DNA of 64,000 bases, taken from Microbacterium sp. SCN 70-27 (GTDB taxonomy: Bacteria > Actinomycetota > Actinomycetes > Actinomycetales > Microbacteriaceae). This document shows, one piece after another, positions 32,725 to 54,490 of the stretch. The translations under genes and the position numbers were made by a program. Position 1 is the stretch's first letter. Each line of letters starts with the position of its first letter. Below the pieces are notes generated by a model. The model worked only from the letters and a program-made list of their open reading frames with translations. It was not told where the DNA came from and did no database searches. The stretch lies in contig MEEK01000013.1 in the NCBI GenBank assembly GCA_001724425.1, positions 26,222 to 90,221 on the forward strand. The letters run 5' to 3'.

Positions 32725-32957
32725 CCCGGCATGCGCGCGCCGGGGCCACGCCCTTCGTCAGCGCGACCCCCGCTGTCGCGGGGCTCGGCGGGCATCCGCT
32801 CGGCTTCTTCGCCGACTCTCGCGAACCGTATTCAGTCCGCAGCGCGGGCGCACGGGGCCGGAGCCGCGGAAACACGGGGCCCGGCCGCGGCGCGCGCGCC
32901 GCGCGGACTGAATACGGCACGGCGAGCGCGGGGCGCGGATCGGCGGAGGCGGCATGA
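32721..32957 (+). CDS. small ORF between alr and tsaE, probably a remnant carrying a palindrome
   Basis: 78 codons. The start overlaps the alr stop (ATGA 32721-32724) and the stop overlaps the tsaE start (ATGA 32954-32957), which looks like a preserved operon position. The product is Ala/Arg/Gly-rich with no recognisable domain. Its middle is filled by a 92-bp palindromic element (32826-32917). In related actinobacteria an alpha/beta hydrolase gene often sits between alr and tsaE, so this may be the scar of such a gene. It may not make a functional protein. Confidence 0.35.
   Translation: MTRHARAGATPFVSATPAVAGLGGHPLGFFADSREPYSVRSAGARGRSRGNTGPGRGARAARTEYGTASAGRGSAEAA
32826..32917. repeat. 92-bp palindromic element in the alr-tsaE interval
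   Basis: Perfect 15-bp outer arms CCGTATTCAGTCCGC (32826-32840) and its complement (32903-32917) enclose a 62-bp GC-rich core with further self-complementarity. The arms have lower GC than their surroundings. It resembles a REP/MITE-like element; no second copy of these arms was noticed in this window. Confidence 0.6.
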
Positions 32958-33457
32958 GCGGGCTGGATGCCTTCGTCGGCGAGCGCGAGATCGCCTCGCC
33001 GTCCGAGATGGAGGCCTTGGGCCGTGAGCTCGGCGGGGCGCTCGCGGGCGGGGACCTGGTCGTTCTCACGGGCGCGCTGGGTGCCGGAAAGACCACCCTC
33101 ACCAGGGGAATCGCCGCGGCCTTGGGTGTGCGCGGGCGAGTGCAGAGCCCGACGTTCGTGATCGCGCGCACGCACCCCTCGCTCGCGGACGGACCGGCGC
33201 TCGTGCATGTGGACGCCTACCGCCTCGGCACCGACGGCGAACTCGACGATCTCGACATCGACTATCCCCACTCCGTTGTGATCGCGGAGTGGGCGGCACC
33301 CTATGCCGCAGCCGTCGCCGACACGTGGTGGGAGGTCGAGATCGACCGCGGGTGGTCGGGCACCGGGGTCGACAACGCGTGCGGCACGGCGGGACCGCAC
33401 GTCGCCGACATGGAGGATGCCGCGCCCCGGCTCGTCCGCATCTCGCGCCGCCCCTAG
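32954..33457 (+). CDS. tsaE: tRNA threonylcarbamoyladenosine biosynthesis ATPase TsaE
   Basis: 167 residues. The P-loop GALGAGKTT is at about 40-48 and VQSPTFVIARTH and VHVDAYRLG are family motifs. TsaE is the ATPase that resets the TsaB-TsaD complex during t6A formation at position 37 of ANN-decoding tRNAs. It is translationally coupled to the upstream small ORF. A 30-residue C-terminal stretch (WSGTGVDNACGTAG) is a lineage-specific insertion. Its partners tsaB, rimI and a damaged tsaD follow. Confidence 0.95.
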   Translation: MSGLDAFVGEREIASPSEMEALGRELGGALAGGDLVVLTGALGAGKTTLTRGIAAALGVRGRVQSPTFVIARTHPSLADGPALVHVDAYRLGTDGELDDLDIDYPHSVVIAEWAAPYAAAVADTWWEVEIDRGWSGTGVDNACGTAGPHVADMEDAAPRLVRISRRP

Positions 33458-33501: not shown

Positions 33502-34182
33502 GTGATCCTCGGCATCGACACCTCGCTCGGCACGGCCGTGGCCGTCGTCGACCTCGACGGAGTCGTACGCGCCGAGGCATCCAGCGACAACCCGCTCGGA
33601 CACGCCGAGGTCATCGGCGACCTGCTGCAGGCCACGCTCGCGGATGCCGCGCGCGGGCCACTCGGGCAGACCGGCGCCATCGAGCCCGTGACCCTGACAC
33701 ACGTCGCCGCGGGAATGGGCCCGGGCCCGTTCACGGGGCTGCGGGTCGGGATCGCCGCCGCGCGCGCCTTCGCCCTGGGTCGGGGGCTCCCGGTCGTCGC
33801 CGTACCGAGCCACGACGCGGCGGCGCTCGAGGTGTTCCTCGCGAGCGCGCTCACAGATCCCTTCGCCGAAGTGCCTCGCTTCGGCATCGTCACGGATGCT
33901 CGCCGTCGGGAGTTCGCCTACACCGTCTATGACGGCATCGACGACGACGGCCTCCCGGTGCGGGTCGCCGGGCCCGCACTCACACCGCGCGACGAGATCG
34001 ACACCGTGCTCGCGGGCTTCGGAGCCGAATGCCGCGACGGCGTCTCGATCCGGGCGGCCATGCTCGCCACGATCGCCGCCCGGGCGGTCGCCGCGGGGCG
34101 TGAGCTCACCGGCCCCGAACCGCTGTACCTCCGCGCGCCCGACGTCACGCTGCCGCGTGCGCCCAAACGGGTGACCGCATGA
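33502..34182 (+). CDS. tsaB: tRNA threonylcarbamoyladenosine biosynthesis protein TsaB
   Basis: 226 residues. VILGIDTSLGTAVAVVD and HVAAGMGPGPFTGLRVG are the ASKHA-fold TsaB motifs. It is the non-catalytic partner that dimerises with TsaD. GTG 33502 is chosen because the family begins with ILGIDTS; the longer frame from 33289 runs into tsaE. It overlaps rimI (ATGA 34179-34182). Confidence 0.94.
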   Translation: MILGIDTSLGTAVAVVDLDGVVRAEASSDNPLGHAEVIGDLLQATLADAARGPLGQTGAIEPVTLTHVAAGMGPGPFTGLRVGIAAARAFALGRGLPVVAVPSHDAAALEVFLASALTDPFAEVPRFGIVTDARRREFAYTVYDGIDDDGLPVRVAGPALTPRDEIDTVLAGFGAECRDGVSIRAAMLATIAARAVAAGRELTGPEPLYLRAPDVTLPRAPKRVTA

Positions 34183-34676
34183 GCCTCCGGCCGGCGACCT
34201 CCGCCGATCTCGCCGCCATCATGACGATCGAGCGCGCCGCGTTCCCGTCGGATGCCTGGAGCGCGGCCATGATGGCGGAAGAGCTCGCTTCGCCGCACAA
34301 CCACTATGTCGTCGCCGAGCGCGCAGGTCGCGTCGAGGGGTACGCGGGGCTTCGTGCACCGGCGGGCGCGAACGACGGCGACGTGCAGACGATCGCGCTC
34401 GCCGAGTCCGCCCGCGGCCGCGGGGCCGGGCGGGCGCTTCTCGTGGCGCTCCTCGAACAGGCCGCGCTGCGGGACGTGCGGCATGTGTTCCTCGACGTCC
34501 GCGACGACAACCCCGTGGCGCACGCACTGTACGTGTCGGAGGGGTTCCGCGAGATCGGCCGGCGCGCGAACTACTACGCCGCCGACGGCGTCGACGCGAT
34601 CGTCATGCAGCTCGACATCCCGGCCTGGGCCGCGGCGCGTGTGCCGCAGCCCTCCGATGCGGGAGCGTGCTCGTGA
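34179..34676 (+). CDS. rimI: ribosomal-protein-alanine N-acetyltransferase RimI
   Basis: 165 residues, a GNAT protein with acetyl-CoA motif A in [17 protein letters not shown] (about 74-90) and the tail [21 protein letters not shown] typical of RimI. It acetylates the N-terminus of ribosomal protein S18. Nucleotides 34395-34455, covering motif A, recur identically in tsaD at 35092-35152. In rimI the segment fits the reading frame and the fold, so this is the original copy. Confidence 0.92.
34395..34455 (+). repeat. 61-bp rimI segment duplicated in tsaD (donor copy)
   Basis: This stretch is identical base for base to 35092-35152, 697 bp downstream in direct orientation. In rimI it encodes the GNAT acetyl-CoA-binding loop, so it is the native location. 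Confidence 0.9.
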
Positions 34677-34687
34677 ATCGGTTCCGA

Positions 34688-34749
34688 AAGCAGGGCGAAC
34701 TGCGCCCGGAGTGGCGCGTAGCCGCGCGGCGCCCCGCTTCGCCCTGCTT
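34688..34749. repeat. palindromic element between rimI and tsaD
   Basis: 12-bp perfect arms AAGCAGGGCGAA (34688-34699) and its complement (34738-34749) enclose a 38-bp GC-rich core that is itself partly self-complementary. It fills most of the 115-bp gap between rimI and tsaD, in a cluster that is otherwise overlapping. Confidence 0.55.
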
Positions 34750-34791
34750 CCGCAACGGAGAGCCCGTCTCTCGCATCGGAAAGGGCGTCGC

Positions 34792-35887
34792 ATGACTCGC
34801 GCCGAACCGCTCGTGCTTGGCATCGAGACGAGCTGCGACGAGACCGGCATCGGCATCGTGCGCGGCCGGACGCTCCTGTCGAACACGATCGCGAGCTCGA
34901 TGGACGAGCACGCCCGCTACGGCGGCGTCGTCCCCGAGGTTGCCGCGCGAGCGCACCTCGAGGCACTGCAGCCCACGATCGAGGCGGCCGTCGCGGAGGC
35001 CGGGATCACGCTCGATGAGCTGGATGCCGTCGCCGTGACGAGCGGCCCCGGCCTCGCCGGCGCGCTCATGGTCGGCGTCGGGGCGGCGAAGGCGCTCGCC
35101 GAGTCCGCCCGCGGCCGCGGGGCCGGGCGGGCGCTTCTCGTGGCGCTCCTCGGGGGACGAGGTCGAGTACCCGACGATCGCGCTCCTCGTCTCGGGCGGG
35201 CACACGTCTCTCCTGCTCGTCCGCGACCTGACGACCGACGTCGAACTCCTCGGTGAGACGATGGACGACGCCGCCGGCGAGGCCTTCGACAAGATCGCCC
35301 GGATCCTCGGGTTGCCCTACCCCGGCGGCCCCGAGATCGACCGCGCGGCAGCGGTCGGTGACCCGAACGCGATCCGCTTCCCGCGCGGCCTCTCCCGTGC
35401 GTCGGACATGGCAGAGCACCGCTACGACTTCTCGTTCTCGGGGCTGAAGACCGCCGTCGCCCGGTGGGTCGAGCAGTCCTCGCTCACCCCGAGCGAGGGT
35501 GCGGGCGAGGCGTCGCAGGAGACCGGACCGGCAGGCCCGGCTGGACCCAGCGCCGCCGACGTGGCCGCGTCGTTCCGCGAGGCGGTCGTCGACGTGCTGG
35601 TGACGAAAGCGTTGGATGCCTGTGCCCGCCACGGCGTGCCGCGACTGCTCCTGGGCGGCGGCGTCGTCGCCAATCGCCGTCTGCGCGAGGTCGCGCTCGA
35701 CCGCGCCGAGGCCGCGGGCGTCACCGTGCGCATCCCGCCGCTCAGCCTCTGCACGGACAACGGCGCGATGATCGCCGCGCTCGCTGCCCAGCTCATCTCG
35801 AGTGGACGCCGCCCGTCGACCCTCGCCTTCGGGGCGGATTCGACGCTGCCCGTGACGGAGATCCAGATCTCCGAGGAGGCCCCGTGA
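34792..35887 (+). pseudogene. tsaD: tsaD (tRNA t6A transferase), disrupted by a rimI-derived segment and frameshift
   Basis: Codons 1-100 (from ATG 34792) are normal Tsa[58 protein letters not shown]. Then 61 bp (35092-35152) identical to rimI appear in place of the roughly 25-30 codons that should encode the NHxxxH metal-binding motif. The frame shifts by +1, and the N-terminal reading ends at 35256. Normal TsaD resumes in another frame from 35153 ([48 protein letters not shown]) to the stop at 35887. As written no functional TsaD can be made, although tsaD is essential in most bacteria. Misassembly and true gene conversion are both possible. Confidence 0.9.
35092..35152 (+). repeat. 61-bp rimI-identical insert inside tsaD (acceptor copy)
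   Basis: Identical to 34395-34455. The junction on the left falls within GCGCTCGCC, which encodes the native TsaD residues ALA as well, so a 9-bp microhomology may have mediated the switch. The right junction is followed by a run of five G. Confidence 0.9.
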
Positions 35888-39193: not shown

Positions 39194-39283
39194 CATCTCG
39201 TCGTGGATGCCGCGTTATCGCACCGTGATCGATCTGTTTCACACCGTTAACGCATCGCAACATTCGCGACGCCGACCGCGCAT

Positions 39284-39289
39284 TAGGTT
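39284..39289 (+). promoter_or_regulatory. candidate -10 box of livK
   Basis: TAGGTT lies 54 bp before ATG 39344 in a locally AT-richer stretch (39194-39300). No clear -35 was identified, so this is tentative. Confidence 0.3.
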
Positions 39290-39343
39290 TGTCACAACCC
39301 GGACGCGGGCCCCCGGGCCCGTGCCACGACACCAAGGAGCAAT

Positions 39344-40606
39344 ATGAGCGTCTTCACACGTTCAGGAGCCGGCAAGGCGGTGGGCGCGATCGCGATCGCC
39401 GCTGTCAGCGCGGTCCTCCTCGCCGGCTGCGCCGGCGGGGGGGCGGCGGAGCCGACCAAGAGCGATGCCCCGGCCGAGGACCTGACCCTCAAGATCGGCA
39501 GCGTGCTGCCCCAGACCGGCAGCCTCGCCTTCCTCGGGCCGCCCGAGGAGGCCGGCGTCCTGCTCGCGGTCAACGAGGTCAACGAGGCCGCGAAGGGCAT
39601 CACGATCGACTTCACGCCCGGCGACTCCGGCGACGCCGACAACAAGGCCTTCGAGACGACGGTGCCGAAGCTCCAGAACGCCGGGGTCTCGGCGATGATC
39701 GGCGCGGCGGCATCCGGTGTGACGAAGCTCTTCCTCGACTCCAACGTCGCGGCCGGGATCATCACCTTCTCGCCGGCGAACACGTCGCCCGACTTCACGA
39801 CGTGGGACGACAAGGGCCTGTACTGGCGCACCGCTCCGAGCGACCTGCTCCAGGGTGAGGTGCTCGGCAACCTGGTCGCCGAGGACGGTCACAAGAACAT
39901 CGGCATCATCTACCAGAACGACGCCTACGGCACCGGCCTCTACGGCGTTGTGAAGAAGGTCTTCGAATCCACCGGCGGCACCGTCGTGGCCGAGGCCTCA
40001 TACAACGACGGCGACAGCTCGTTCGACGCACAGGTCGCGACGATCGCGGCGGCGAAGCCCGACGCGGTCGTGCTCGTCACGTTCGACCAGTTCTCGACCA
40101 TCGCTCCGCTCCTCGTGAACGCAGGCATCCCGGCGAAGAACTTCTACCTCGTCGACGGCAACCTGAAGCAGTGGGGCAGCACCGTCTCGGTCTCGCTCGA
40201 GGGTGCGAAGGGCACGACGCCCGGACCGGTGCTCGAGGACGACTTCAAGGACCGCCTCAACGCGGCATGGACGAAGGCCAACAACCCCCCGCTCGAGGAC
40301 TACTCGTACGCGGCCGAGTCGTACGACGCCGTCGTGCTGCTCGCGCTGGCCTCGCTGACCGCACAGTCGACCACCGGTGCCGACATCGCCGGAAAGCTCC
40401 AGGAGGTCTCTGGCGGCTCCGGCAAGGGTGAGAAGTGCACCTCGTTCGCGAAGTGCGCCGACATCATCCTCGGCGGCGGTGTCGCGGACTACGACGGCTA
40501 CTCCGGCCCAATCACCTTCGATGACGCCGGTGACCCGACCCAGGCATCCATCGGCATCTTCCAGTACGGTGCCGACAACATGCACACCCGCATCGACACT
40601 CGCTGA
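39344..40606 (+). CDS. livK: branched-chain amino-acid ABC transporter substrate-binding lipoprotein
   Basis: 420 residues. The signal peptide ends in the lipobox LAGC with Cys29 as lipidation site. The mature protein is a type I periplasmic-binding fold (LKIGSVLPQTGSLAFLGPPEEAGVLLAVNEVN) of the Leu/Ile/Val-BP family. It binds a branched-chain amino acid or similar ligand outside the cell and delivers it to LivHM. AAGGAG precedes ATG 39344 by 5-6 bp. The permease and ATPase genes are convergent, on the opposite strand, separated by two terminators. Confidence 0.92.
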   Translation: MSVFTRSGAGKAVGAIAIAAVSAVLLAGCAGGGAAEPTKSDAPAEDLTLKIGSVLPQTGSLAFLGPPEEAGVLLAVNEVNEAAKGITIDFTPGDSGDADNKAFETTVPKLQNAGVSAMIGAAASGVTKLFLDSNVAAGIITFSPANTSPDFTTWDDKGLYWRTAPSDLLQGEVLGNLVAEDGHKNIGIIYQNDAYGTGLYGVVKKVFESTGGTVVAEASYNDGDSSFDAQVATIAAAKPDAVVLVTFDQFSTIAPLLVNAGIPAKNFYLVDGNLKQWGSTVSVSLEGAKGTTPGPVLEDDFKDRLNAAWTKANNPPLEDYSYAAESYDAVVLLALASLTAQSTTGADIAGKLQEVSGGSGKGEKCTSFAKCADIILGGGVADYDGYSGPITFDDAGDPTQASIGIFQYGADNMHTRIDTR

Positions 40607-40621
40607 GCGTCGCGGCAAGAA

Positions 40622-40651
40622 GAAGGGCCCCGGAGAGATCCGGGGCCCTTC
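40622..40651 (+). terminator. livK terminator
   Basis: Perfect 13-bp stem (40622-40634 with 40639-40651) and a GAGA tetraloop, followed by a CCTT stretch, 15 bp past the stop. Confidence 0.85.
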
Positions 40652-40677
40652 CCTTATGTGTCGGGAGGCAGTGGCAT

Positions 40678-40723
40678 GAGCGCTGTGCGCGCCGGCTCGA
40701 TCGAGCCGGCGCGCTCAGCGCTC
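40678..40723 (-). terminator. liv operon terminator (long interrupted palindrome)
   Basis: A loopless 14-bp inverted repeat (40687-40700 with 40701-40714) is extended after a 3-nt mismatch by another 6-bp pair (40678-40683 with 40718-40723). It abuts the livF stop codon, so it is placed to end the reverse liv transcript. Confidence 0.7.
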
Positions 40724-41498
40724 AGTGCGCGTCTTCGGTGCCGAGCGTGCCGAGGTACAGGCCGATGACCTGCGGGTCGTTGAGCAGCTCGCGCCCCGTC
40801 CCCTCGTGGGCGTCGCGCCCCTGATCCAGGACGTATCCGCGGTCGCAGATCTGCAGGCAGCGGCGGGCGTTCTGCTCGACCATGATCGTCGTCACACCGG
40901 CCTTGTTGATGTCGGAGACGCGGATGAACGCATCGTCCTGCCGCACGGGCGACAGGCCTGCGGACGGTTCGTCGAGCAGCAGCACGGACGGGTCCATCAT
41001 GAGCGCACGGCTCATCGCGACCATCTGGCGCTCGCCGCCCGAGAGCGACCCCGCCCGCTGCTTCAGGCGCTTGCCGAGCTCCGCAAAGATCCCCGTGACG
41101 AACTCGAGTCGTTCCGCGTAGATCTTCGGGTTCTGGAAGAGGCCCATCTGCAGGTTCTCCTCGATCGACAGCGACGGGAACACGTTGTTCGTCTGCGGCA
41201 CGAAGGCGACGCCGCGCTGCACGAGCTTGTCGGCCTTCAGCCCGACGATCGACTCGCCGTTGACGGTGATGATGCCGCCGCGCACCTTGACGAGCCCGAA
41301 GATCGACTTCAGCAGCGTGGACTTTCCGGCGCCGTTCGGCCCGATGATGCCGATCAGCTCGCCCTTGCGGGCGATGAGGTTCGCGCCGTTGATGATGTTG
41401 ATGCCGGGGAGGTAGCCGGCGGTGAGGTCGCGGACTTCGACGACGACGTCGTCCGAGGAGGCGGGGGCGGCAGCCGGTGCCGCAGCGGGAGTGGTCAC
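40722..41498 (-). CDS. livF: branched-chain amino-acid ABC transporter ATP-binding protein LivF
   Basis: 258 residues. Walker A GPNGAGKST, signature LSGGERQMVAMSRAL and Walker B LLLDEPSAGLSP are intact. The sequence VRDLTAGYLPGINIINGANL and FPSLSIEENLQMGL are typical of LivF. Its start is GTG 41498, overlapping the livG stop as GTGA (41495-41498). It is the last gene of the livHMGF operon. Confidence 0.93.
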   Translation of the reverse strand: MTTPAAAPAAAPASSDDVVVEVRDLTAGYLPGINIINGANLIARKGELIGIIGPNGAGKSTLLKSIFGLVKVRGGIITVNGESIVGLKADKLVQRGVAFVPQTNNVFPSLSIEENLQMGLFQNPKIYAERLEFVTGIFAELGKRLKQRAGSLSGGERQMVAMSRALMMDPSVLLLDEPSAGLSPVRQDDAFIRVSDINKAGVTTIMVEQNARRCLQICDRGYVLDQGRDAHEGTGRELLNDPQVIGLYLGTLGTEDAH

Positions 41499-42496
41499 TT
41501 GTTCTCCTCCTCGGCGTCGGCGATCGCCGACGCCTCGTCTTCCTGGATCTCTTCGAGGAGCTCCTGCGCCGACTCGTCCAGTTCGCCCTCGATGCGGCCG
41601 GTCACGACGCCGAGGTCGACGTCCTGATGGCTCCCGAGGTACGCGTCGATGACGGCCTGGTCCTCCATGACCGTGTCCGGCGGGCCTTCGGCGACCACCT
41701 TGCCCTCGGCCATCACGACGACCCAGTCGGCGATGTGGCGGACCATGTGCATGTCGTGCTCGACGAACAGCACGGTCACCCCGAGGTCCTTGAGGTCCAG
41801 GATGTGGTCGAGGAGCGACTGCGTGAGTGCCGGGTTGACGCCGGCCATCGGCTCATCGAGCATCACGAGGTTCGGATCGCTCATGAGAGCGCGCGCCATC
41901 TCGAGGAGCTTCCGCTGACCGCCCGACAGGGAGGCCGCGAAATCGTTCTCCTTGGCATCCAGCTTGAACCGCTGCAGCAGCCCGCGCGCCTTGATCTCGT
42001 TGGCCTTCTCCTGGTCGCGCCAGACGGTCGGGACGAAGGCCTGCCAGAACTTCTCACCGCGCTGCCCCGGCGCGCCGAGCTTCATGTTCTCGAGCACGGT
42101 CAGCAGCGACAGCGCCTTCGTGAGCTGGAACGTGCGCACCTGGCCCATCCGCGCGACCTTGAAGGCGGGGATGCCGGCGAGGCTCTTGCCGTCGTACGAC
42201 CACGACCCGGTGTTCGGCTTGTCGAAGCCGCACAGCAGGTTGAACAGCGTCGTCTTTCCCGCGCCGTTCGGGCCGATGAGGGCCGTGATGGCGTTCCGCG
42301 GGATCTCGAGGTGCTCCACGTCGACCGCCGTGAGCCCGCCGAAGCGGCGCGTGACGCCGTCGATCACCATGATCGGGTCGGTCTTGGCGACGCCGGGCAC
42401 CGCGGCGCCCTTCGCGAGCCCGGTCGCCTTGGGGCGGGGGATCGATCCGGTGACGGGAGCCGTCACGTCGCCTGCGGGGTTCTGATCACTTGACAA
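41495..42496 (-). CDS. livG: branched-chain amino-acid ABC transporter ATP-binding protein LivG
   Basis: 333 residues. Walker A GPNGAGKTTLFNLLCGF, signature LSGGQRKLLEMARAL and Walker B MLDEPMAGVNP are present, with the LivG-type FQLTKALSLLTVLENMKLG. It is longer than usual: about 40 extra residues at the N-terminus and an acidic tail of about 45 residues at the C-terminus (ESAQELLEEIQEDEASA). It overlaps livM by 11 bp. Confidence 0.92.
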   Translation of the reverse strand: MSSDQNPAGDVTAPVTGSIPRPKATGLAKGAAVPGVAKTDPIMVIDGVTRRFGGLTAVDVEHLEIPRNAITALIGPNGAGKTTLFNLLCGFDKPNTGSWSYDGKSLAGIPAFKVARMGQVRTFQLTKALSLLTVLENMKLGAPGQRGEKFWQAFVPTVWRDQEKANEIKARGLLQRFKLDAKENDFAASLSGGQRKLLEMARALMSDPNLVMLDEPMAGVNPALTQSLLDHILDLKDLGVTVLFVEHDMHMVRHIADWVVVMAEGKVVAEGPPDTVMEDQAVIDAYLGSHQDVDLGVVTGRIEGELDESAQELLEEIQEDEASAIADAEEENK

Positions 42497-43484
42497 AGGT
42501 CATCTCCCTCTTGTCGCCGAGGATGCCCTGCGGCCTGAAGATCACGAGGAGCATCAGCGAGGCTCCCACGAGGATGTAGCGGAGCGTTCCCGCCTGGATG
42601 TCGGTCATCGGCAGCCACCCGGCCTTCGCCATCTCCGGCAGGAGGTTTCCGAGGAGGGCCATGACCATCCAGAACAGCACCGCACCGAGCGACGGTCCGA
42701 AGATCGTCGACGCGCCGCCGAGCAGGAGGATCGTCCACAGGAAGAAGGTGAGCGCCGTCGTGTAGCTCGACGGGATGACGGCCGACGGCAGGACGTAGAC
42801 GATGCCGCCGAGGGCGCCGATGACACCACCGACGATGAGGGCCTGCATCTTGTACGCGAACACGTTCTTGCCGAGCGAGCGCACGGCATCCTCGTCTTCA
42901 CGGATGCCCTTGAGCACGCGGCCCCACGGGCTTCGCATGAGCGCCCAGACGACGAACAGCGACACCGCGAGCAGGATGAGCCCGAACACGACGACCCAGA
43001 GCTGCTGGGCCGAGAACTGCCACGGGCCCCACCCGTATCGCCCACCGTCGGGGAGGTTCGGGAAGGGGTTCGCCGACTGGAAGCTGCCGTTGTAGTTGCC
43101 GAGTCCGTCGGCGGAGTTGGTCCACTCGTCGAAGACCTGCGTCGTGAACAGCAGTCGCACGATCTCCGCCGCCGCGATCGTCACGATGGCCAGGTAGTCA
43201 GCACGCAGTCGCAGCGTCGGGATGCCGAGGAGGAACGCGAACAGGGCGGCGAGCACGAGCCCGACGAGCATCGCGAGCCACCACGGCAGTCCGAAGGTCA
43301 GAATGGAGATCGCGTAGCCGTACGCACCGAGGGCCATGAAGCCCGCCATGCCGAAGTTCAGCAGGCCCGCGTAGCCGAAGTGCACAGCGAGGCCGGTCGC
43401 CGCGAGGGCGTAGGCGATCGTCACCGGGCTCAGCAGATAGCTGAGCGTGTTGGAGATGATGGAACCCCAATCCATGGCGATCAC
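42486..43484 (-). CDS. livM: branched-chain amino-acid ABC transporter permease LivM
   Basis: 332 residues with 8-9 membrane segments. LGIPTLRLRADYLAIVTIAAAEIVRLL, WGRVLKGIREDEDAVRSLGKN and IFRPQGILGDKRE are LivM hallmarks, including the EAA-like loop. The GTG at 43484 is preferred over ATG 43475 because it overlaps the livH stop as GTGA and has AAGG at proper spacing upstream. It forms the membrane channel with LivH. Confidence 0.9.
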   Translation of the reverse strand: MIAMDWGSIISNTLSYLLSPVTIAYALAATGLAVHFGYAGLLNFGMAGFMALGAYGYAISILTFGLPWWLAMLVGLVLAALFAFLLGIPTLRLRADYLAIVTIAAAEIVRLLFTTQVFDEWTNSADGLGNYNGSFQSANPFPNLPDGGRYGWGPWQFSAQQLWVVVFGLILLAVSLFVVWALMRSPWGRVLKGIREDEDAVRSLGKNVFAYKMQALIVGGVIGALGGIVYVLPSAVIPSSYTTALTFFLWTILLLGGASTIFGPSLGAVLFWMVMALLGNLLPEMAKAGWLPMTDIQAGTLRYILVGASLMLLVIFRPQGILGDKREMTFVK

Positions 43485-44830
43485 CCGAGCCTTTCTTTGC
43501 GACCGAGCAGACCCTGGGGTCTCACGAGCAGGATGAGAATCAGAACGACCAGGGCTCCGGCGTACTTGAGGTCGGACGGGATCCAGAGCGTCGACACCTC
43601 GACGACGAGACCGACGATGAGGGAGCCGAGCAGTGCTCCGAACGCCGTTCCGAGTCCGCCGAGGGTGATCGCGGCGAAGATCAGCAGCAGCATCTGCGTG
43701 CCCATGTTCCAGGTGACGCCGGGGCGGAAGTAGGCCCAGAGGATGCCGGAGATCCCCGCGAGCGTGCCGGCGATGATCCACACGATCCGGATGATCCGGT
43801 CGACGTTGATGCCGGATGCCGCGGCGAGCTGCGGGTTGTCGGAGATCGCGCGCGTCGCCTTGCCGATCCGCGTGCGCAACAGGAAGTAGGCGACCGCGAG
43901 GATGATGACGATGCTGACCCCCATCGAGATGAGGTCGATGTAGGAGAGCTGGATCGGGCCGATGTCGATCGGCGTCGGGCTCGCGCCCGGCAGCTGGTAC
44001 GTCTTGCCGCCGATGAAGAACTGGTAGATGTACCGCAGCGCGAGGGACAGGCCGATGCTCACGATCATGAGCTGGACGACGCCGAGGCCCCGTCTTCTGA
44101 GCGGGCGCCACAGCGCGGCATCCATCGCCCAGCCGAGCACCGCGCCGGCACCGACGGCGATGATGAGCGCGGCCCACAGCGGCAGGGCCCACGAGGACGT
44201 CGCGACCAGTGCGACGAGACCGCCGAGGGTCACCATCTCGCCATGGGCGAAGTTCGACAGGCCCGTCGTGCCGTAGATGAGGGCCGCTCCCATCGAGGCG
44301 AGAGCGAGGAGCAGGCCGAAGTTCAGTCCGTTGATGATGCGGACGAGCAGCTGGTCGCCGAAGGATTGCGTGACGCGTTCGCCGGCGCCGAGGAAGAGGT
44401 TCACGATCTTCGTGTTCGTGAGGCCGAACTCCACTTCGAACTCGCCCGTCGACCCCTGCTTCGGCTGCAGACCCTCCGGCAGATGCGACGGGTCGACGAT
44501 GACGCCGTCGGGGAGGGTCGACTCATCGATGATGAGGGTGAACGTGTTCTTCTCGGGGACGTACAGGCGCCACTTTCCGGCGGCATCGGTCACCGTCTCG
44601 GCCTCGAAGCCGTTGCCGGTGACCTTCACGGTCACGTCCGGCACGGGCTGCTCGGCGTTGGTGATCACACCGCCGAAGTAATAGGGGGTCTTCTCCTGAT
44701 CGCCACCGGGCGTGTCGGGGGCGGCGGCGAAGGCCGCACCGCCCGAACTCAGCAACAGCGCCGACGCGGCCAGCAGTGCGCCGAGGACGAGCACGAACCA
44801 CCTCAGTGGATTCCGCGCGGTGACGGTCAT
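43481..44830 (-). CDS. livH: LivH permease fused to an N-terminal extracellular carboxypeptidase-regulatory-like domain
   Basis: 449 residues. The C-terminal 300 are a normal LivH permease (NGLNFGLLLALASMGAALIYGTTGLSNFAHGEMVTLGG, ARRs like IGKATRAISDNPQLAAASGIN, VRPQGLLGRKERLG). Ahead of it are a signal peptide (about 9-36) and a 110-residue beta-sandwich-like domain with GGVITNAEQPVPDVTVKVTGNG and DAAGKWRLYVPEKNTFTLIIDES, the pattern of carboxypeptidase regulatory-like/Cna-B-like folds. Classical LivH lacks this part. ATG 44830 starts the signal peptide. First gene of the liv operon; divergent from guaB. Confidence 0.9.
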   Translation of the reverse strand: MTVTARNPLRWFVLVLGALLAASALLLSSGGAAFAAAPDTPGGDQEKTPYYFGGVITNAEQPVPDVTVKVTGNGFEAETVTDAAGKWRLYVPEKNTFTLIIDESTLPDGVIVDPSHLPEGLQPKQGSTGEFEVEFGLTNTKIVNLFLGAGERVTQSFGDQLLVRIINGLNFGLLLALASMGAALIYGTTGLSNFAHGEMVTLGGLVALVATSSWALPLWAALIIAVGAGAVLGWAMDAALWRPLRRRGLGVVQLMIVSIGLSLALRYIYQFFIGGKTYQLPGASPTPIDIGPIQLSYIDLISMGVSIVIILAVAYFLLRTRIGKATRAISDNPQLAAASGINVDRIIRIVWIIAGTLAGISGILWAYFRPGVTWNMGTQMLLLIFAAITLGGLGTAFGALLGSLIVGLVVEVSTLWIPSDLKYAGALVVLILILLVRPQGLLGRKERLG

Positions 44831-44872
44831 GGGTCTCAAAGGATCCTCCAGTCCAGCGCACCAAACGGGTGA

Positions 44873-46579
<1,707 letters not shown>

Positions 46580-46617
46580 CCGCGCGGGCGGGGCGCGGGC
46601 ACCCACGGGCGCCGCGC

Positions 46618-46693
46618 GAACTCCGCAGAATCACACGAACTCCGCACCCGTTCCCGCGATCGGGTGCGGAGTTCGTCACTTTCTGCGGGGTTC
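46618..46693. repeat. nested palindromic element, copy A (downstream of guaB)
   Basis: Outer arms 46618-46630 and 46681-46693 (13 bp, one mismatch) enclose inner perfect 16-bp arms 46635-46650 and 46661-46676. Both arm sets share the core ACTCCGCA. The same architecture and core occur at 47733-47810. It could also serve as the guaB terminator. Confidence 0.75.
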
Positions 46694-46788
46694 ATCGCCT
46701 CCTCCCCAGGCAGGGCCGGGCGGGAGTTGTCCACGAGAGCGGGTTCGCGGAGGCATCCGAGAGCCCGTGGCGCGGCAGGATGCCGTGT

Positions 46789-47631
46789 ATGCACCTGCTT
46801 CCCGTCACAGAGCGCCTGCGCGGTGCGGCGGCGCATCGCGAACAGCTGCGCGACGAGGGCTATCGCGACACCCACCTGCGGGCGGCCGTGCACGCGGGTG
46901 AGGTGGACGTGTTCCGCCGCGCGTGGTTCGTGTCGCCGGATGCCCCGGACGAGCTCCGCACGGCGGCGCAGTGGGGCGGGCGGATCACGTGCACGACGTT
47001 CGCACGGCACCGCGGATGGTGGATGCCGGAGGGTGCCGACGACGCCGTGCACCTGCACTTTCCACCCGGGTCGACGGGCCCGCGGATGCCGTGGACCGGC
47101 GTAGCCCACTGGACGCAGCCGATAGCTCCCGTCGGCAGGGCGCTGGTTGCGACGGTCGAGGACGCCCTCGCCCACATCGCGGTGTGTCAACCTCCCGCGG
47201 TCGCGCATGTGCTCTGGGAGTCGGCCGCCCGCGTCGAGCAGCTCTCGCCGGAGGCACTGCGCGCGATCCGCTGGCCGTCGCACGCTGCCCGCGAGCTCGC
47301 CACGGAGATCACGGGACTCGCCGACTCGGGGCTCGAGGTGCTCATGTGTCGCCCGCTCCGGCGGCTTCGTGTGAAGGTGCGGCAGCAGGCGGTCCTCGCC
47401 GGAAGGCGCGTCGACGCCCTCGTCGGCGAGTGGCTCGTCCTGCAGATCGACGGCTGGGCGCACCACTCGTCGTCGGCGCAGCGCACGAAGGACATCGCCC
47501 ACGACGCCGAATTGCGCCTGCGCGGCTACACCGTGCTGCGGTTCTCGTACGCGCAGGTGGTGCACGACTGGCCCGGCGTCGAGCGGACCATCCGCCGCGC
47601 GCTCGCCGCCGGGTTGCACGCTCGCGCGTGA
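46789..47631 (+). CDS. DUF559 / Vsr-like endonuclease-fold protein
   Basis: 280 residues. The N-terminal 150 resemble the AbiEi/winged-helix-like part common in actinobacterial DUF559 proteins (LRDEGYRDTHLRAAVHAGEV..., GGRITCTTFARHRGWW). The C-terminal 110 (RRVDALVGEWLVLQIDGWAHH, then HDAELRLRGYTVLRFSYAQVVHDW) match the DUF559 PD-(D/E)XK-type nuclease fold. Where many members have an ExDG motif this one has QIDG, so catalytic competence is uncertain. The gene is solitary and bracketed by two copies of a nested palindrome. Confidence 0.8.
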   Translation: MHLLPVTERLRGAAAHREQLRDEGYRDTHLRAAVHAGEVDVFRRAWFVSPDAPDELRTAAQWGGRITCTTFARHRGWWMPEGADDAVHLHFPPGSTGPRMPWTGVAHWTQPIAPVGRALVATVEDALAHIAVCQPPAVAHVLWESAARVEQLSPEALRAIRWPSHAARELATEITGLADSGLEVLMCRPLRRLRVKVRQQAVLAGRRVDALVGEWLVLQIDGWAHHSSSAQRTKDIAHDAELRLRGYTVLRFSYAQVVHDWPGVERTIRRALAAGLHARA

Positions 47632-47732
47632 GCGCGCGGAACACGCCGGTGCGGCGCGCTGGGATGTCGCCGGGCGGGGCGTGGCCGGGGGAGGCCGGGT
47701 GCGCGCGGTGATCCGTTGTGTGAGGCATCCGA

Positions 47733-47810
47733 CGAACTCCGCAGGATGCCACGTACTCCGCACCCGATCATGGCGCCCGGTGCGGAGTAGGTCACAATCT
47801 GCGGAGTTCG
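47733..47810. repeat. nested palindromic element, copy B (downstream of the DUF559 gene)
   Basis: Outer perfect 12-bp arms 47733-47744 and 47799-47810 enclose inner 11-bp arms 47754-47764 and 47779-47789. Arms share the ACTCCGCA core and the two-level nesting with copy A at 46618-46693, and it lies in the 269-bp gap before the TMEM175-like gene. Confidence 0.75.
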
Positions 47811-47887
47811 CGGGGTGACAGCGCGCGGGAAGAGCGCGAGCGGCGCCGGCGCCCGTGCGCGGGGCCCCGCCGCGAACCCGGGCGCGC

Positions 47888-47893
47888 TAACCT
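47888..47893 (+). promoter_or_regulatory. -10 box of the TMEM175-like gene (leaderless)
   Basis: TAACCT lies 7 nt before GTG 47901. Confidence 0.45.
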
Positions 47894-47900
47894 GGCGACC

Positions 47901-48611
47901 GTGAGACGAAAGCCGGCCGACGCGGGTGCGCACGATCCGGGCGTGACGCGGACCGAGGCCTACACCGACGCCGTGTTCGCGATCGCGGCGACCCTCCTCG
48001 TGCTCGATCTGACCACGACCTCGTTCGGCGAGATCCGCAGCGACGGGCAGCTGTGGGCGGCGCTCGGTGCGCTCTGGCCGAACCTCATGGCGTTCGGGAT
48101 CAGCTTCGCGCTGCTGAGTGCCATGTGGATCATCCACCTGCGTCAGTTCCGCGACATCCGCACGATCGACACGACCCTGCTGTGGCTCAACAACGCGCGG
48201 CTGCTGTTCGTCGTGCTGATCCCGTTCGCGACGGCGCTCAACTCGGAGTTCAACAGCTTCTACGCCGGCCGGATGCTGCTGCCGATCGACTTCTTCCTGG
48301 TCGCCCTCTTCGGACACCTCTCGTGGCGTTGGGCGGCCGCGCGCGGAGGGCACCTGATGGACCCGGATGCCTACGCGCACCGCTCCGCCGCTGCCGCCGG
48401 CGGGATCGCCGCCATCGTCTGCGGTGCGATCACCGTCGCCGCCTCGCCGTGGTTCGGATCGTACGCGTTCTTCGCCTTCTTCCTGAGCGGGCCCGTCAGC
48501 GTTCTGCTCCTGCGACGCTGGTCGCGCGGGCCGCGCGCCGCGGCCGACAGCGGTGCAGCGGGAGGCGACGCCGCGCCGGGCGGAGACACCGAGTCGGGCC
48601 CGGTCGGATAA
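47901..48611 (+). CDS. TMEM175-family (DUF1211) membrane protein
   Basis: 236 residues with six hydrophobic segments. YTDAVFAIAATLLVLDL matches the FSDGVFAIAxTLL motif of the TMEM175 potassium-channel family near the N-terminus. Only one six-helix unit is present, as in bacterial members that assemble as tetramers. The C-terminus is a Gly/Ala-rich tail. The function in this organism is not known; potassium conductance is inferred from family. Confidence 0.85.
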   Translation: MRRKPADAGAHDPGVTRTEAYTDAVFAIAATLLVLDLTTTSFGEIRSDGQLWAALGALWPNLMAFGISFALLSAMWIIHLRQFRDIRTIDTTLLWLNNARLLFVVLIPFATALNSEFNSFYAGRMLLPIDFFLVALFGHLSWRWAAARGGHLMDPDAYAHRSAAAAGGIAAIVCGAITVAASPWFGSYAFFAFFLSGPVSVLLLRRWSRGPRAAADSGAAGGDAAPGGDTESGPVG

Positions 48612-48659
48612 GCTGGTCGGCTCCGCGCCTGCGACGCGGCCGGGGCGGAAGGATCCGCC

Positions 48660-50351
48660 GTGGGGCACATCGACATCGCCGCCGTCTCGTTCGTCCTGCC
48701 CGACGGGCGACCCCTGCTCGACGAGGTGACCTTCCGTGTCGCGGAGGGCAAGACGACCGCGCTCATCGGGCAGAACGGCGCCGGCAAGACGACGCTCTTG
48801 CGGATCATCCGGGGCGAGCTCGCCCCGCGATCGGGAGTCGTCACGATCGACGGCGGACTCGGCGTCATGGACCAGTTCATCGGTCACGGCGACGCGGACC
48901 AGACCGTGCACGACCTGCTGATCGCCGTCGCCCCGGCGCGCGTCGGCGCCGCCGCTCGAGAGCTCGAGGATGCCGAGGCGGCGATCATCGAGCACGACGA
49001 CCTCGACACCCAGATGCGGTATGCCGCCGCGCTCGCCGACTACGCGGAAGCGGGCGGATACGAGTACGAGACGGTGTGGGACACGTGCACGGTCGCGGCC
49101 CTCGGCATCCCCTTCGCGCGGGCGCGGTACCGAGACCTCGGAACCCTGTCGGGCGGCGAGCAGAAGCGGCTCGCGCTGGAGGCGCTGCTGCGCGGCCCCG
49201 ACCAGGTGCTGCTCCTCGATGAGCCCGACAACTACCTCGACGTGCCCGGCAAGCGCTGGCTCGAGGAGCGGCTGCGCGAGACGCCGAAGACGGTGCTGCT
49301 CGTCTCGCACGATCGCGAGCTGCTCGCGCGGGCCGCGGATCGGATCGTGACGCTCGAGGCGGGCGGCGCGGGGAGCACCGCGTGGGTGCACGGCGGCGGC
49401 TTCGGCACATACCACGCGGCGCGGGAAGACCGGATGGCCCGCCTCGACGAGCTCCGCCGGCGCTGGGACGAGCAGCACGCGAAGCTCATCCGCTTCGTCG
49501 CGGACATGAAGGCCAAAGCCGCCGCGAGCGACGAGTTCGCCTCGCGCTACCGCGCCGCCCAGACCCGGCTCCGCCGCTTCGAGGAGGCGGGTCCGCCCGA
49601 GGAGCGTCCGCCCGCGCAGGATCTCGACCTGCGGTTGCGCGGAGCGCGCACCGGCAAGCGCGCCGTCGTCGCCGAACGGCTCGAACTCGTGGGACTCATG
49701 CAGCCGTTCGACCTCGACGTCTGGTTCGGCGACCGCGTCGCCGTCCTCGGATCGAACGGATCGGGCAAGTCCCACTTCCTGCGGCTCCTCGCCCGCGGCG
49801 GCACCGATCCGGACGGCCTGCTCGGCCACGTCACCGAAGTGGGCGCGGCACTCGAACCGGTCGCGCACACGGGGCGCGCCGTCCTCGGCGCGCGCGTGAC
49901 GCCCGGCTGGTTCGCGCAGACCCACCGGCATCCGGAGTACACCGGGCGCTCGCTCCTCGACGTCCTCCACCGCGGCGACGATCGACGGCCGGGGATGCCT
50001 CGTGATGCGGCCAGCTCGGCCCTCGACCGCTACGGGCTCGTGCGTCAGGCGGAGCAGACCTTCGACAGCCTGTCGGGCGGTCAGCAGGCGCGCTTCCAGG
50101 TGCTGCTGCTCGAGCTCTCCGGCGCGACACTGCTCCTCCTCGACGAGCCGACCGACAACCTCGACCTCGTCTCGGCGGAGGCGCTCGAAGACGCGCTGCG
50201 CCGGTTCGAGGGGACCGTGCTCGCGGTCACGCACGATCGCTGGTTCGCGCGCTCGTTCGACCGCTTCATCGTGTTCGGCTCCGACGGCCGGGTGGTGGAG
50301 AGCGACGAGCCCGTGTGGGACGAGAAGCGGGTGGCGAGGGCACGCGGGTAG
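48660..50351 (+). CDS. ABC-F family ATPase (two nucleotide-binding domains, no membrane part)
   Basis: 563 residues. Two ABC domains: Walker A GQNGAGKTT (about 38) and GSNGSGKSH (about 366), signatures LSGGEQKRLALEAL and LSGGQQARFQVLLLEL, Walker B LLLDEPDNYLD and LLLDEPTDNLD. The interdomain linker is at about 255-330. ABC-F proteins act on ribosomes as translation factors or antibiotic-resistance proteins; this one has no specific hallmark that I can read. GTG 48660 has the Shine-Dalgarno GGAAGGA. Confidence 0.92.
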   Translation: MGHIDIAAVSFVLPDGRPLLDEVTFRVAEGKTTALIGQNGAGKTTLLRIIRGELAPRSGVVTIDGGLGVMDQFIGHGDADQTVHDLLIAVAPARVGAAARELEDAEAAIIEHDDLDTQMRYAAALADYAEAGGYEYETVWDTCTVAALGIPFARARYRDLGTLSGGEQKRLALEALLRGPDQVLLLDEPDNYLDVPGKRWLEERLRETPKTVLLVSHDRELLARAADRIVTLEAGGAGSTAWVHGGGFGTYHAAREDRMARLDELRRRWDEQHAKLIRFVADMKAKAAASDEFASRYRAAQTRLRRFEEAGPPEERPPAQDLDLRLRGARTGKRAVVAERLELVGLMQPFDLDVWFGDRVAVLGSNGSGKSHFLRLLARGGTDPDGLLGHVTEVGAALEPVAHTGRAVLGARVTPGWFAQTHRHPEYTGRSLLDVLHRGDDRRPGMPRDAASSALDRYGLVRQAEQTFDSLSGGQQARFQVLLLELSGATLLLLDEPTDNLDLVSAEALEDALRRFEGTVLAVTHDRWFARSFDRFIVFGSDGRVVESDEPVWDEKRVARARG

Positions 50352-50354
50352 GCT
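50349..50354 (+). promoter_or_regulatory. -10 box of guaB3 (leaderless)
   Basis: TAGGCT lies 6 nt before GTG 50361. Alternatively GAGGGG (50355-50360) is a Shine-Dalgarno sequence for ATG 50367. Confidence 0.45.
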
Positions 50355-50360
50355 GAGGGG

Positions 50361-51485
50361 GTGAGCATGGAGATCGAGCTCGGCCGCGCCAAGCGCGCCC
50401 GCCGCGCGTATGCGTTCGACGACATCGCGGTCGTGCCCTCACGGCGCACCCGCAACCCGGAGGACGTGTCGACGGCCTGGTCGATCGACGCCTTCGGGTT
50501 TGAGATCCCCGTGCTCGGCGCGCCGATGGACTCTGTCATGAGCCCGACGACGGCCATCATGCTGGGTCAGCTCGGCGGCCTCGGCGTGCTCGATCTCGAG
50601 GGCGTGTGGACCCGCTACGACGACCCGGAGCCGCTCCTCGCCGAGATCGCGTCGCTGCCGGCCACCGAGGCGACCCGCCGCATGCAGGAGCTGTACGCCG
50701 AGCCCATCAAGCCCGAGCTCGTGCGCGACCGCCTCGCCGAGATCCGCGCGGGCGGCGTCACCGTCGCGGGCGCGCTCACGCCGCAGCGCACGCAGGAGCT
50801 GTACGAGACCGTCGTCGCCGCAGGCGTGGACCTGTTCGTCATCCGCGGGACGACCGTCTCGGCCGAGCACGTGTCGTCGGATGCCGCGCCTCTCAACCTC
50901 AAGAAGTTCATCTACGACCTCGACGTCCCCGTCATCGTCGGCGGCGCCTCCACGTATACGGCGGCGCTCCACCTCATGCGCACGGGTGCCGCCGGCGTCC
51001 TCGTCGGATTCGGCGGGGGAGCGGCGTCGACGACGCGGGCGACCCTCGGCATCCACGCACCCATGGCGACCGCCGTCGCGGACGTCGCCGGCGCGCGCCG
51101 CGACTACCTCGACGAGTCGGGCGGTCGCTACGTGCACGTCATCGCCGACGGCGGTGTCGGCACGTCGGGCGACATCGTGAAGGCGCTCGCGATGGGAGCG
51201 GATGCCGTCATGCTCGGCGTCGCGCTCGCGCGTTCGACCGATGCGCCGGGTCGTGGCCATCACTGGGGCCCCGAGGCGCATCACTCCAAGCTTCCCCGCG
51301 GCAAGCGGGTCGAGGTCGAGCAGGTCGGCCCGCTCGAACAGGTGCTGTACGGACCTGCGCCCGTCGCGAACGGGACCGCGAACCTGATCGGCGCCCTCAA
51401 GAAGTCCATGGCGACGACCGGCTACTCGGACCTCAAGGAGTTCCAGCGCGTCGAGGTCGTCGTCGCGCCGTACGCCGCGAACTGA
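50361..51485 (+). CDS. guaB3: GuaB3 family IMP dehydrogenase-related protein
   Basis: 374 residues, shorter than GuaB because it lacks the CBS pair. IELGRAKRARRAYAFDDIAVVPSRRTRNPEDVSTAW and IRGTTVSAEHVSSDAAPLNLKKFIYDLDVPVIVGG are typical of actinobacterial GuaB3. The GSICTT catalytic loop of GuaB is replaced by RGTTVSAEHV. Its exact activity is debated in actinobacteria. GTG 50361 (leaderless) is given; ATG 50367 is a close alternative. The stop shares a base with the SURF1 start. Confidence 0.93.
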   Translation: MSMEIELGRAKRARRAYAFDDIAVVPSRRTRNPEDVSTAWSIDAFGFEIPVLGAPMDSVMSPTTAIMLGQLGGLGVLDLEGVWTRYDDPEPLLAEIASLPATEATRRMQELYAEPIKPELVRDRLAEIRAGGVTVAGALTPQRTQELYETVVAAGVDLFVIRGTTVSAEHVSSDAAPLNLKKFIYDLDVPVIVGGASTYTAALHLMRTGAAGVLVGFGGGAASTTRATLGIHAPMATAVADVAGARRDYLDESGGRYVHVIADGGVGTSGDIVKALAMGADAVMLGVALARSTDAPGRGHHWGPEAHHSKLPRGKRVEVEQVGPLEQVLYGPAPVANGTANLIGALKKSMATTGYSDLKEFQRVEVVVAPYAAN

Positions 51486-52399
51486 TGTCGGTGGACGACC
51501 CTTCGGCAGGCGCGGCGACCTCGGGCGGGCCGTCGCCGCGCGGCGGCGGCGGCGAGCGGGCGGAGGTGTTCCCCCCGACCCTGCGCGAAGTGATGCTCCG
51601 CCCGTGGTGGATCGGCATGCTCGCGTTCGCGCTCCTCGTCGCGGGCGTGTTCGCATGGCTCGGGCAGTGGCAGCTCTCGCGTGCCGTCGACACGAGCCCG
51701 CCGCCCCCCGGTGCGACGGAGAACATCCGCCCGATCGCGGATGTCGCAGCCCCGGGTGAGAATCTGCCCGAGCCGCTCGTCGGCCAGCGCGTGAGCGTCT
51801 CGGGCTCGTTCGTGGCGGAGGACTTCCTCGTCGTCTCGTCGCGCTTCAACGACGGCGAGAAGGGCTACTGGGTCACCGGCCAGCTGCGGGTGCCGCCCAC
51901 GGAGGATGTTCCGGACCCGACGTCGCTCGCCGTCGCGATCGGCTGGACGGCTGACCGCGAACTGGCGGATGCCGCGGCATCCCGGCTCGCTCTGGCGACC
52001 GACGGGAGGATCGCGCTGACCGGTCGCCTGATCTCCGACGAGGGACCCGCCGTGCCCCCGCGCGGGGCGCCCGCGACCGAGATGACCCGCATGTCGCCCG
52101 CCGGACTCCTCGGCCGCTGGCACGACGTGGCCGAGCTCAACGTCTACCGGCCCTATCTCGTCGCAGACGGTGTGGACGCCGTCGCCGGGCTGCTGAAGGA
52201 CACGGGCCTCGTCGCCATCGACTCGCCTGCGCCCAGCGAGGGGTCGAACGTCAACTGGCTCAACATCTTCTACGCCGTCGAGTGGGCGATCTTCGCCGGC
52301 TTCGCCTTCTACATGTGGTACCGCCTGGCGAAGGATGCCTGGCAGAAGGAGGTCGAGGCGCTCGAAGACGCCGACGGCCCCCAGCCCGGCGCCGACTAG
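51485..52399 (+). CDS. SURF1-family protein (cytochrome oxidase biogenesis)
   Basis: 304 residues. A membrane segment at about 41-60 is followed by LGQWQLSRAVDTS, the SURF1 'GxWQxxR' signature. A soluble loop and a second membrane segment follow near 262-282 (NIFYAVEWAIFAGFAFYMWYR). SURF1 assists haem-a insertion into cytochrome c oxidase. The start overlaps the guaB3 stop by one base. Its stop lies within the -10 box of the DUF3817 gene. Confidence 0.9.
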   Translation: MSVDDPSAGAATSGGPSPRGGGGERAEVFPPTLREVMLRPWWIGMLAFALLVAGVFAWLGQWQLSRAVDTSPPPPGATENIRPIADVAAPGENLPEPLVGQRVSVSGSFVAEDFLVVSSRFNDGEKGYWVTGQLRVPPTEDVPDPTSLAVAIGWTADRELADAAASRLALATDGRIALTGRLISDEGPAVPPRGAPATEMTRMSPAGLLGRWHDVAELNVYRPYLVADGVDAVAGLLKDTGLVAIDSPAPSEGSNVNWLNIFYAVEWAIFAGFAFYMWYRLAKDAWQKEVEALEDADGPQPGAD

Positions 52400-52402
52400 A
52401 CT
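52397..52402 (+). promoter_or_regulatory. -10 box of the DUF3817 gene (leaderless)
   Basis: TAGACT lies 7 nt before ATG 52410 and includes the SURF1 stop codon TAG. Confidence 0.5.
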
Positions 52403-52409
52403 CGAACCC

Positions 52410-52907
52410 ATGCCCCAGCCCAAGCTCGCCACCTTCCCGGCGATCCGCGGTGCGCTGAAGTTCTACCAGATCGCGTCGGTCATCACGGGCGTCATGCTGC
52501 TCCTCTTGTGCACCGAGATGGTCGTCAAGTACGTCCTGCACTACGAGCTCTTCCTCGGCGGTTCGGGCGGATTCCTCTGGTTCGCACCCGTCATGGAGAC
52601 TGCGGGTGGACTGGAATCGACAGGGGACGGACTCAACCTGTCGCTCGGCATCCTCGTCGCGCACGGCTGGTTCTACGTCGTCTACCTCTTCGCGTGCTTC
52701 CGCATGTGGAGCCTCATGCGCTGGAACTTCACGCGCTTCGTGCTCCTCGCCCTCGGCGGCATCGTGCCGCTGCTGTCGTTCTTCATGGAGGTGCGCGTCG
52801 CGCGCGACGTGAAGGCCTACCTCGCCGAGCGCGAAGCCGACGAACTCCACGCCCGCGCCGAACGCTCATCTTTGACCCACGAGATCCCCACGGAGAACAA
52901 GCGGTGA
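52410..52907 (+). CDS. DUF3817 integral membrane protein
   Basis: 165 residues with three hydrophobic segments. [33 protein letters not shown] and [29 protein letters not shown] match the DUF3817 family found next to SURF1 and guaA in actinobacteria. The function is unknown; a link to respiration is suggested by the neighbouring gene. The stop overlaps guaA as GTGA (52904-52907). Confidence 0.88.
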
Positions 52908-54487
52908 CCACCCAGACCGAGACCGCCCAGCGTCCCGTCCTCGTCGTCGACTTCGGTGCCCAGTACGCCCAGCTGATCGCTCGGCGCGTGCGTGAGGCCG
53001 GGGTCTACAGCGAGATCGTCCCGCACACCGCGACGGCGGCCGAGATCGAGGCGAAGAACCCGGTCGCGCTCATCCTCTCCGGCGGCCCGTCGTCCGTCTA
53101 CGAAGAGGGCGCGCCGTCGCTCGACGAGGGCATCCTGCGCCTCGGCATCCCGACCCTCGGCATCTGCTACGGCTTCCAGGTCATGGCGCAGCAGCTCGGC
53201 GGCGAGGTCGCGAACACGGGGCTGCGTGAGTACGGCGCGACGGATGCCTCGCTCACGGGCGACGGCGGCGTGCTGCTGGGCGGCCAGCCGGCCGAGCAGA
53301 ACGTGTGGATGAGCCACGGCGACCAGGTCGCGACCGCGCCCGACGGGTTCGAGGTGCTCGCGTCGACGTCCGCGACGCCCGTGGCCGCGTTCGGGAACGC
53401 GGAGAAGTGCTTCTACGGTGTGCAGTGGCATCCGGAGGTCAAGCACTCGGACTACGGCCAGGACGTCATCGTCAACTTCCTGCACAAGGCGGCGGGTCTT
53501 CCCGCCGACTGGAACAGCGGCAACGTCATCGCCGAGCAGGTCGCCCGCATCCGCGAGCAGGTCGGCTCGGGCCGCGTGCTGTCGGCGCTGTCCGGCGGCG
53601 TCGACTCGGCCGTGTCGACGGCGCTCGTGCATGAGGCGGTCGGCGACCAGCTCGTCGCTGTGTTCATCGACCACGGGCTCCTTCGCAAGGGCGAGCGCGA
53701 GCAGGTGGAGAACGACTACGTGGCATCCACCGGCGTCCGACTCATCACGGTCGATGCGCGCGAGACGTTCCTCGACGCGCTCGCGGGCGTGAGCGACCCG
53801 GAGCAGAAGCGCAAGATCATCGGGCGCGAGTTCATCCGCGCGTTCGAGAAGGTGCAGCAGGACCTCATCGCCGAGGCCGCCGCCGAGGGCGACCCGATCC
53901 GGTTCCTCGTGCAGGGCACACTGTATCCCGACGTCGTGGAGTCCGGCGGCGGCACCGGGACGGCGAACATCAAGAGCCACCACAACGTCGGGGGCCTCCC
54001 CGAAGACCTGCAGTTCGAGCTCGTGGAGCCGTTGCGCACCCTCTTCAAGGACGAGGTGCGCGCGATCGGCCGTGAGCTGGGCCTCCCCGAGGCGATCGTC
54101 GGGCGGCAGCCGTTTCCGGGCCCCGGCCTCGGCATCCGGATCGTGGGTGAGGTCACCGCTGCTCGCCTCGAGATCCTGCGTGACGCCGATGCCATCGCGC
54201 GCGAAGAGCTGACTCGCGCCGGCCTCGACGGCGAGATCTGGCAGTGCCCCGTCGTGCTCCTCGCCGATGTCCGGTCGGTGGGTGTGCAGGGGGACGGCCG
54301 CACGTACGGGCATCCGATCGTGCTGCGTCCGGTGTCGTCGGAGGATGCGATGACCGCTGACTGGACGCGCCTGCCGTACGACGTGCTGTCGAAGATCTCC
54401 AACCGCATCACCAACGAGGTCCGCGACGTCAATCGGGTCGTCCTCGACGTGACCTCCAAGCCTCCCGGCACCATCGAGTGGGAGTGA
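52904..54487 (+). CDS. guaA: GMP synthase (glutamine-hydrolysing)
   Basis: 527 residues. The N-terminal class I amidotransferase has Cys88 in GICYGFQVM and GVQWHPEV with the catalytic His-Glu. The ATP pyrophosphatase domain begins with the PP-loop [12 protein letters not shown], and the C-terminal dimerisation domain ends [27 protein letters not shown]. It makes GMP from XMP and completes the route begun by GuaB. GTG 52904 is fixed by the overlap with DUF3817 and the conserved [21 protein letters not shown] strong terminator follows. Confidence 0.97.
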
Positions 54488-54490
54488 CCT

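Follow-up and report, generated by a model that had tools for sequence, protein, structure and literature searches.

Organization of the Locus

The window analyzed here is the whole stretch of DNA, 64,000 nucleotides in length, and it holds tsaE, tsaB, rimI, and tsaD in this order on the forward strand, with tsaD interrupted by a short segment that is identical to part of rimI. The relevant features are as follows, where PS02067 is the same-species record used for comparison below.

32954..33457, forward strand: tsaE (TIGR00150, 65.2 bits, cut-off 60.1)
33535..34182, forward strand: tsaB (TIGR03725, 99.0 bits, cut-off 69.3; the start codon is provisional, the frame having been tested from 33535)
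34179..34676, forward strand: rimI, which carries the source copy (TIGR01575, 112.6 bits, cut-off 86.4)
34395..34455, forward strand: source copy of the 61-bp segment within rimI
34792..35100, forward strand: 5' part of tsaD, up to AKALA (97.7% identity to PS02067; 6 synonymous differences and 1 nonsynonymous)
35092..35152, forward strand: patch of 61 bp identical to rimI, the first 10 bp of which are also native to the PS02067 tsaD (left microhomology)
35101..35152, forward strand: 52 bp in place of a 69-bp segment of PS02067 (23 codons including NHLVGH)
35153..35887, forward strand: 3' part of tsaD, +1 out of frame with the 5' part and undecayed (96.5% identity to PS02067, pN/pS 0.138)

In addition to TsaB and TsaE, TsaC is represented by a Sua5/YrdC match on contig C55 of the same genome. 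The gap between rimI and tsaD contains an inverted repeat (34678-34759) with 22-nt arms that are 86% complementary and 38 nt apart, and its core resembles CCCTGCTTTCGGAAC. As a similar sequence of 31 nt is found at L071:18893 and 19075, the inverted repeat may be a dispersed repeat element.

State of tsaD

The reading frame of tsaD opens at 34792, enters the copied stretch in the frame that rimI itself uses, and comes to a stop after 154 amino acids; from GDEVEY to the stop codon at 35887, the C-terminal part is encoded in the +1 frame. The TIGR03723 profile is matched as two pieces, at profile positions 1-99 and 121-312, with positions 100-120 missed. As annotated frames, these pieces score 136.9 and 179.5 bits, so that the full-length cut-off of 296.1 is not reached, and a six-frame search gives them 135 and 225.1 bits. 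The NHLVGH pattern is present in the comparison loci L035, L036, L037, and L039 and has no match in the genome to which the window belongs. As the segment is absent, the gene in the window does not qualify for TIGR03723 membership on the NHxxxH metal-binding motif. The initial annotation had claimed both a +1 frame change that leaves the remainder of tsaD out of frame and removal of the metal-binding motif by the rimI segment, and both claims hold.

The reaction expected of a TsaD is the transfer of threonylcarbamoyl to A37 of tRNA. In the two alignments displayed with TsaD chains of known structure, the lost segment falls on a shared VNH...H stretch. According to a passage of PMC9654439, the catalytic site of TsaD contains a conserved histidine metal motif, given there as HxxH...D, and by our own identification this is the NHxxxH lost here. 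From the gene as written, no working product can be expected. It is barely credible that it represents a functional TsaD variant in which a rimI-derived peptide replaces the metal site and the frame is restored in translation. The copied stretch is indeed open and read in the frame of rimI, but the NHxxxH ligands are lost, both annotated pieces score below the full-length cut-off, and the arrangement is found in none of the 57 relative loci examined.

Source and Age of the Repeated Segment

The segments at 34395-34455 and 35092-35152 agree at 61/61 bp with a start-to-start spacing of 697, and the identity noted in the initial annotation is thus a maximal exact repeat. This rimI/tsaD pair is the sole direct exact repeat of at least 25 bp in the window and lies far above chance, and the 61-mer has exactly two matches in the 69 contigs of its own genome, namely the rimI copy and the tsaD copy. 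In L035, L036, and L037 the segment was aligned at the same position of rimI, and therefore the segment originates from rimI, with tsaD as the recipient. The patch agrees with the genome's own rimI allele at 61/61 positions and with that of PS02067 at 57/61 (four differing sites), which means that it is either very young or not biological. A source 697 bp away in the same orientation lies inside the usual read-pair distance.

The remainder of tsaD speaks to the age of the break in a similar way. The 3' tail differs from PS02067 by 19 synonymous and 7 nonsynonymous changes, six of the seven being located in tail residues 114-130, and pN/pS is 0.138 for the tail, 0.117 for rimI, and 0.063 for the head of tsaD. 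The tail value is similar to that of rimI and somewhat higher than that of the head and, to judge from these substitutions, the out-of-frame tail is without decay. An undecayed tail implies that selection on tsaD either lasted until very recently or is still acting.

Comparison With the Same-Species Genome

In the genus-level set of 366 genomes (own genome included), G245 is the only one labelled as the same species. Its locus L039 lies letter for letter in L035, which comes from the record "Microbacteriaceae bacterium PS02067." The PS02067 contig aligns to window positions 1-39197 at 98.9% and 44750-63598 at 97.9%, together 58 of the 64 kb. The intervening region of about 5.5 kb (39198-44749) shows no species-level alignment to this contig, only patches at 76-79%, and is a variable region.

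In PS02067, tsaD is intact and encodes a 370-aa protein that scores 411 bits with TIGR03723. Against it, the window shows a clean block in which a 69-bp segment (23 codons including NHLVGH) has given way to 52 bp from rimI, a net change of -17 bp, and homology picks up at once on either side. The replacement of tsaD codons by a 61-bp rimI segment, as it was initially described, therefore stands as a copy of 61 bp, of which about 52 bases are new and take the place of 69 bp of PS02067. The same-species genome is without the junctions, as a chimera would lead one to expect.

Only three other uncompensated length differences separate the window from PS02067 in the aligned parts. Two involve a single base, at 33474 (in the gap between tsaE and the start tested for tsaB) and at 39194 (where an aligned block ends), and the third involves 5 bp at 62093-62095. 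In a further 10 kb (C13:9889-20000) there are none. The assembly is otherwise clean where it was compared with PS02067, and this counts against an artefact.

Junctions and a Possible Real Mutation

With PS02067 as a stand-in for the native allele, the left junction contains 10 bp of microhomology, GCGCTCGCCG, which corrects the 9 bp given initially, and the right junction contains 2 bp, CG, common to both sequences. By our own arithmetic, at 70% GC any one base matches by chance with a probability of about 0.29. A run of ten matches greatly exceeds what accident would produce, and the left junction was thus probably formed at the microhomology, whether in the cell or in the tube. Plain k-mer overlap would not account for joins as short as 10 and 2 bp, and an artefactual join would therefore require chimeric reads or a lenient gap closer. 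That both tsaD junctions are sequence-clean and free of Ns also counts against an artefact.

These features might suggest a real and very recent mutation in the cell, in which 69 bp of tsaD were replaced by 52 bp of rimI at microhomologies and TsaD was killed. A short single strand would have been copied from rimI, or a replication fork would have jumped back 697 bp and returned, and the resulting strain would be without t6A or would survive by some other way. The geometry fits such an event as well as it fits an artefact: the source is intragenomic and is the genome's own rimI allele, the copy is exact, the 10-bp left match is well beyond chance, and comparison with PS02067 shows the assembly around the patch to be otherwise clean. 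We nevertheless consider this explanation unlikely. In the bacteria listed in Table 1 of PMC9654439, namely E. coli and B. subtilis, cells die when tsaD is depleted, according to section 3 of that paper. Moreover, tsaD is undecayed by the measures above, TsaB, TsaE, and TsaC have been kept, the own genome yielded no second TsaD, and the draft is incomplete and contains what look like doubtful joins. Some bacteria are said to live without the t6A genes, which counts against an artefact.

Search for a Second TsaD

A family search of the own genome, which is 95.37% complete, returned no second TsaD, only the two broken pieces. The initial annotation had left two options, an assembly chimera or a real template switch with functional TsaD supplied elsewhere. 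With neither a second TsaD nor NHLVGH found in this assembly, the second option is weakened in its "elsewhere" part; the chimera is the better supported of the two.

It is also very improbable that both forms coexist in the culture or population, through a minority mutant or through duplication of tsaD with one copy broken, and that the assembly shows the broken one only. The incompleteness of the draft and the duplicated sequence that flanks single Ns elsewhere would allow for such a mixed state, but no second tsaD or NHLVGH occurs in the 69 contigs, and the 61-mer occurs exactly twice.

tsaD Across the Genus

A full-scoring TsaD is found in 350 of the 366 genus genomes (own included), with 10 giving no match and six falling below the cut-off: the own genome, G007, G136, G235, G283, and G315. 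For G283 and G315, the low score reflects a gene cut by the end of the locus. In G007 (L090), G136 (L089), and G235 (L091), tsaD switches frame with no patch and with no exact repeat of at least 25 bp; in G235 the switch occurs at the same AAK-LA site, apparently through loss of a single base. Thus, three of the 366 assemblies, at the level of about 1%, present tsaD as frame-broken without a patch, and we infer that these are errors.

In all 57 relative loci, rimI and tsaD are both covered and tsaD runs in one frame with NHxxxH; these loci represent at most 47 genomes, since nine genomes were entered twice and L039 lies inside L035. With a strict pattern, the motif was recovered intact in 28 of 29 relative loci, and the one miss, L027 (G121), proved intact on re-examination. 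Exact repeats of at least 35 bp occur in four of the 57 loci (L026, L027, L031, and L037), with spacings of 18-171, and none is a rimI-tsaD pair. The possibility that relatives share the arrangement as a functional gene was considered from the outset and is rejected, as all 57 loci and the same-species gene are intact.

The TsaD of G121 (L027; L092:1000-2160) has an in-frame insertion of 41 residues with three ALDQRGG-like repeats just after NHLVGH. This insertion is perhaps a dispersed repeat element that is tolerated in that loop.

Quality of the Assembly

The assembly consists of 69 contigs with a total of 2.65 Mb, and that of G245 is about 3.0 Mb. No match to 16S rRNA was obtained in the 69 contigs; full-length 16S was found in all four congeners checked. 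The absence is only suggestive, because the same search also missed 16S in five of 14 control genomes. The genome (G000) resembles an incomplete draft or a metagenome bin.

The window and 60 further stretches, 1.23 Mb in all, contain three single Ns, at L073:13701, L133:2652, and L071:10533. The first two are located exactly between identical copies of 43 and 55 bp, respectively. This looks like overlapping contig ends that were joined with a false local duplication left behind, the alternative being a natural tandem pair with an ambiguous base.

None of the 16 other repeat pairs inspected in this 1.23 Mb proved to be a further abrupt patch within a conserved gene, which again counts against an artefact. 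By eye, these pairs resemble in-frame protein repeats, dispersed repeat elements, contig starts, or N-joins. The 16 were inspected one by one from a list with many more pairs, mainly in L070, L081, L144, and L146. The pair in L072, the only one compared with PS02067, lies in an aligning stretch with one indel nearby. At L072:11285-11588, the own genome and PS02067 are seemingly one copy apart in an imperfect tandem unit of about 177 bp.

Interpretation

Overall, the patch in tsaD is most probably a sequencing or assembly artefact, in other words a chimera of reads or of assembly, and a real loss of the gene is the less probable reading. The artefact is favored because the same-species gene is intact, tsaD is essential in model bacteria, the broken gene shows no decay, the source lies within read-pair distance, and the draft is weak. 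We infer that the join was made in the tube or in the computer instead of in the cell. The rimI sequence would have been brought into tsaD by a library molecule or read that was chimeric, or when contigs were joined locally, for example in gap filling; it would have come from 697 bp upstream, entering at the 10-bp microhomology and leaving at the 2-bp one. The living organism would then carry an intact tsaD and make an ordinary TsaD with its NHxxxH metal site. A literature search on errors of gap closing found no paper.

If the patch is such an artefact, it warns that an essential gene can falsely seem lost from a draft with no seam and no Ns, and that a false loss of this kind can be recognized by an exact patch from a neighboring gene. 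If the mutation is real, the organism would be a bacterium naturally deficient in t6A and would exemplify short-patch templated replacement in the field. It is distinctly doubtful that TsaD, and with it probably t6A, has only just been lost from a wild Microbacterium-group lineage by a short templated replacement from rimI; were this true, it would provide a natural case in which an essential tRNA modification has been made dispensable, caught before decay of the gene or its partners.

Comparison With Known Systems

Misassemblies and chimeric reads in draft genomes have the same features of a local source, microhomology at the junction, and a conserved gene that is broken here and intact in the same species. 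The tsaD case differs from them in that its junction is free of Ns.

In short-patch double illegitimate recombination (SPDIR), a short genomic segment is swapped for a short heterologous intragenomic one at microhomologies. The tsaD patch answers to this definition, with 52 new bp, 10 bp of microhomology on the left, and 2 bp on the right against PS02067. SPDIR (Hulter and Wackernagel 2008; Harms et al. 2016) is reported from Acinetobacter; the target here, in contrast, is a gene that is essential in model bacteria, and the case is known from an assembly.

A further comparison is with the TsaD (TIGR03723) orthologue of PS02067. The gene in the window is without the 23-codon NHLVGH segment and is broken in frame, whereas both flanking parts match the orthologue at 96-98% DNA identity and the upstream neighbor in both is rimI.
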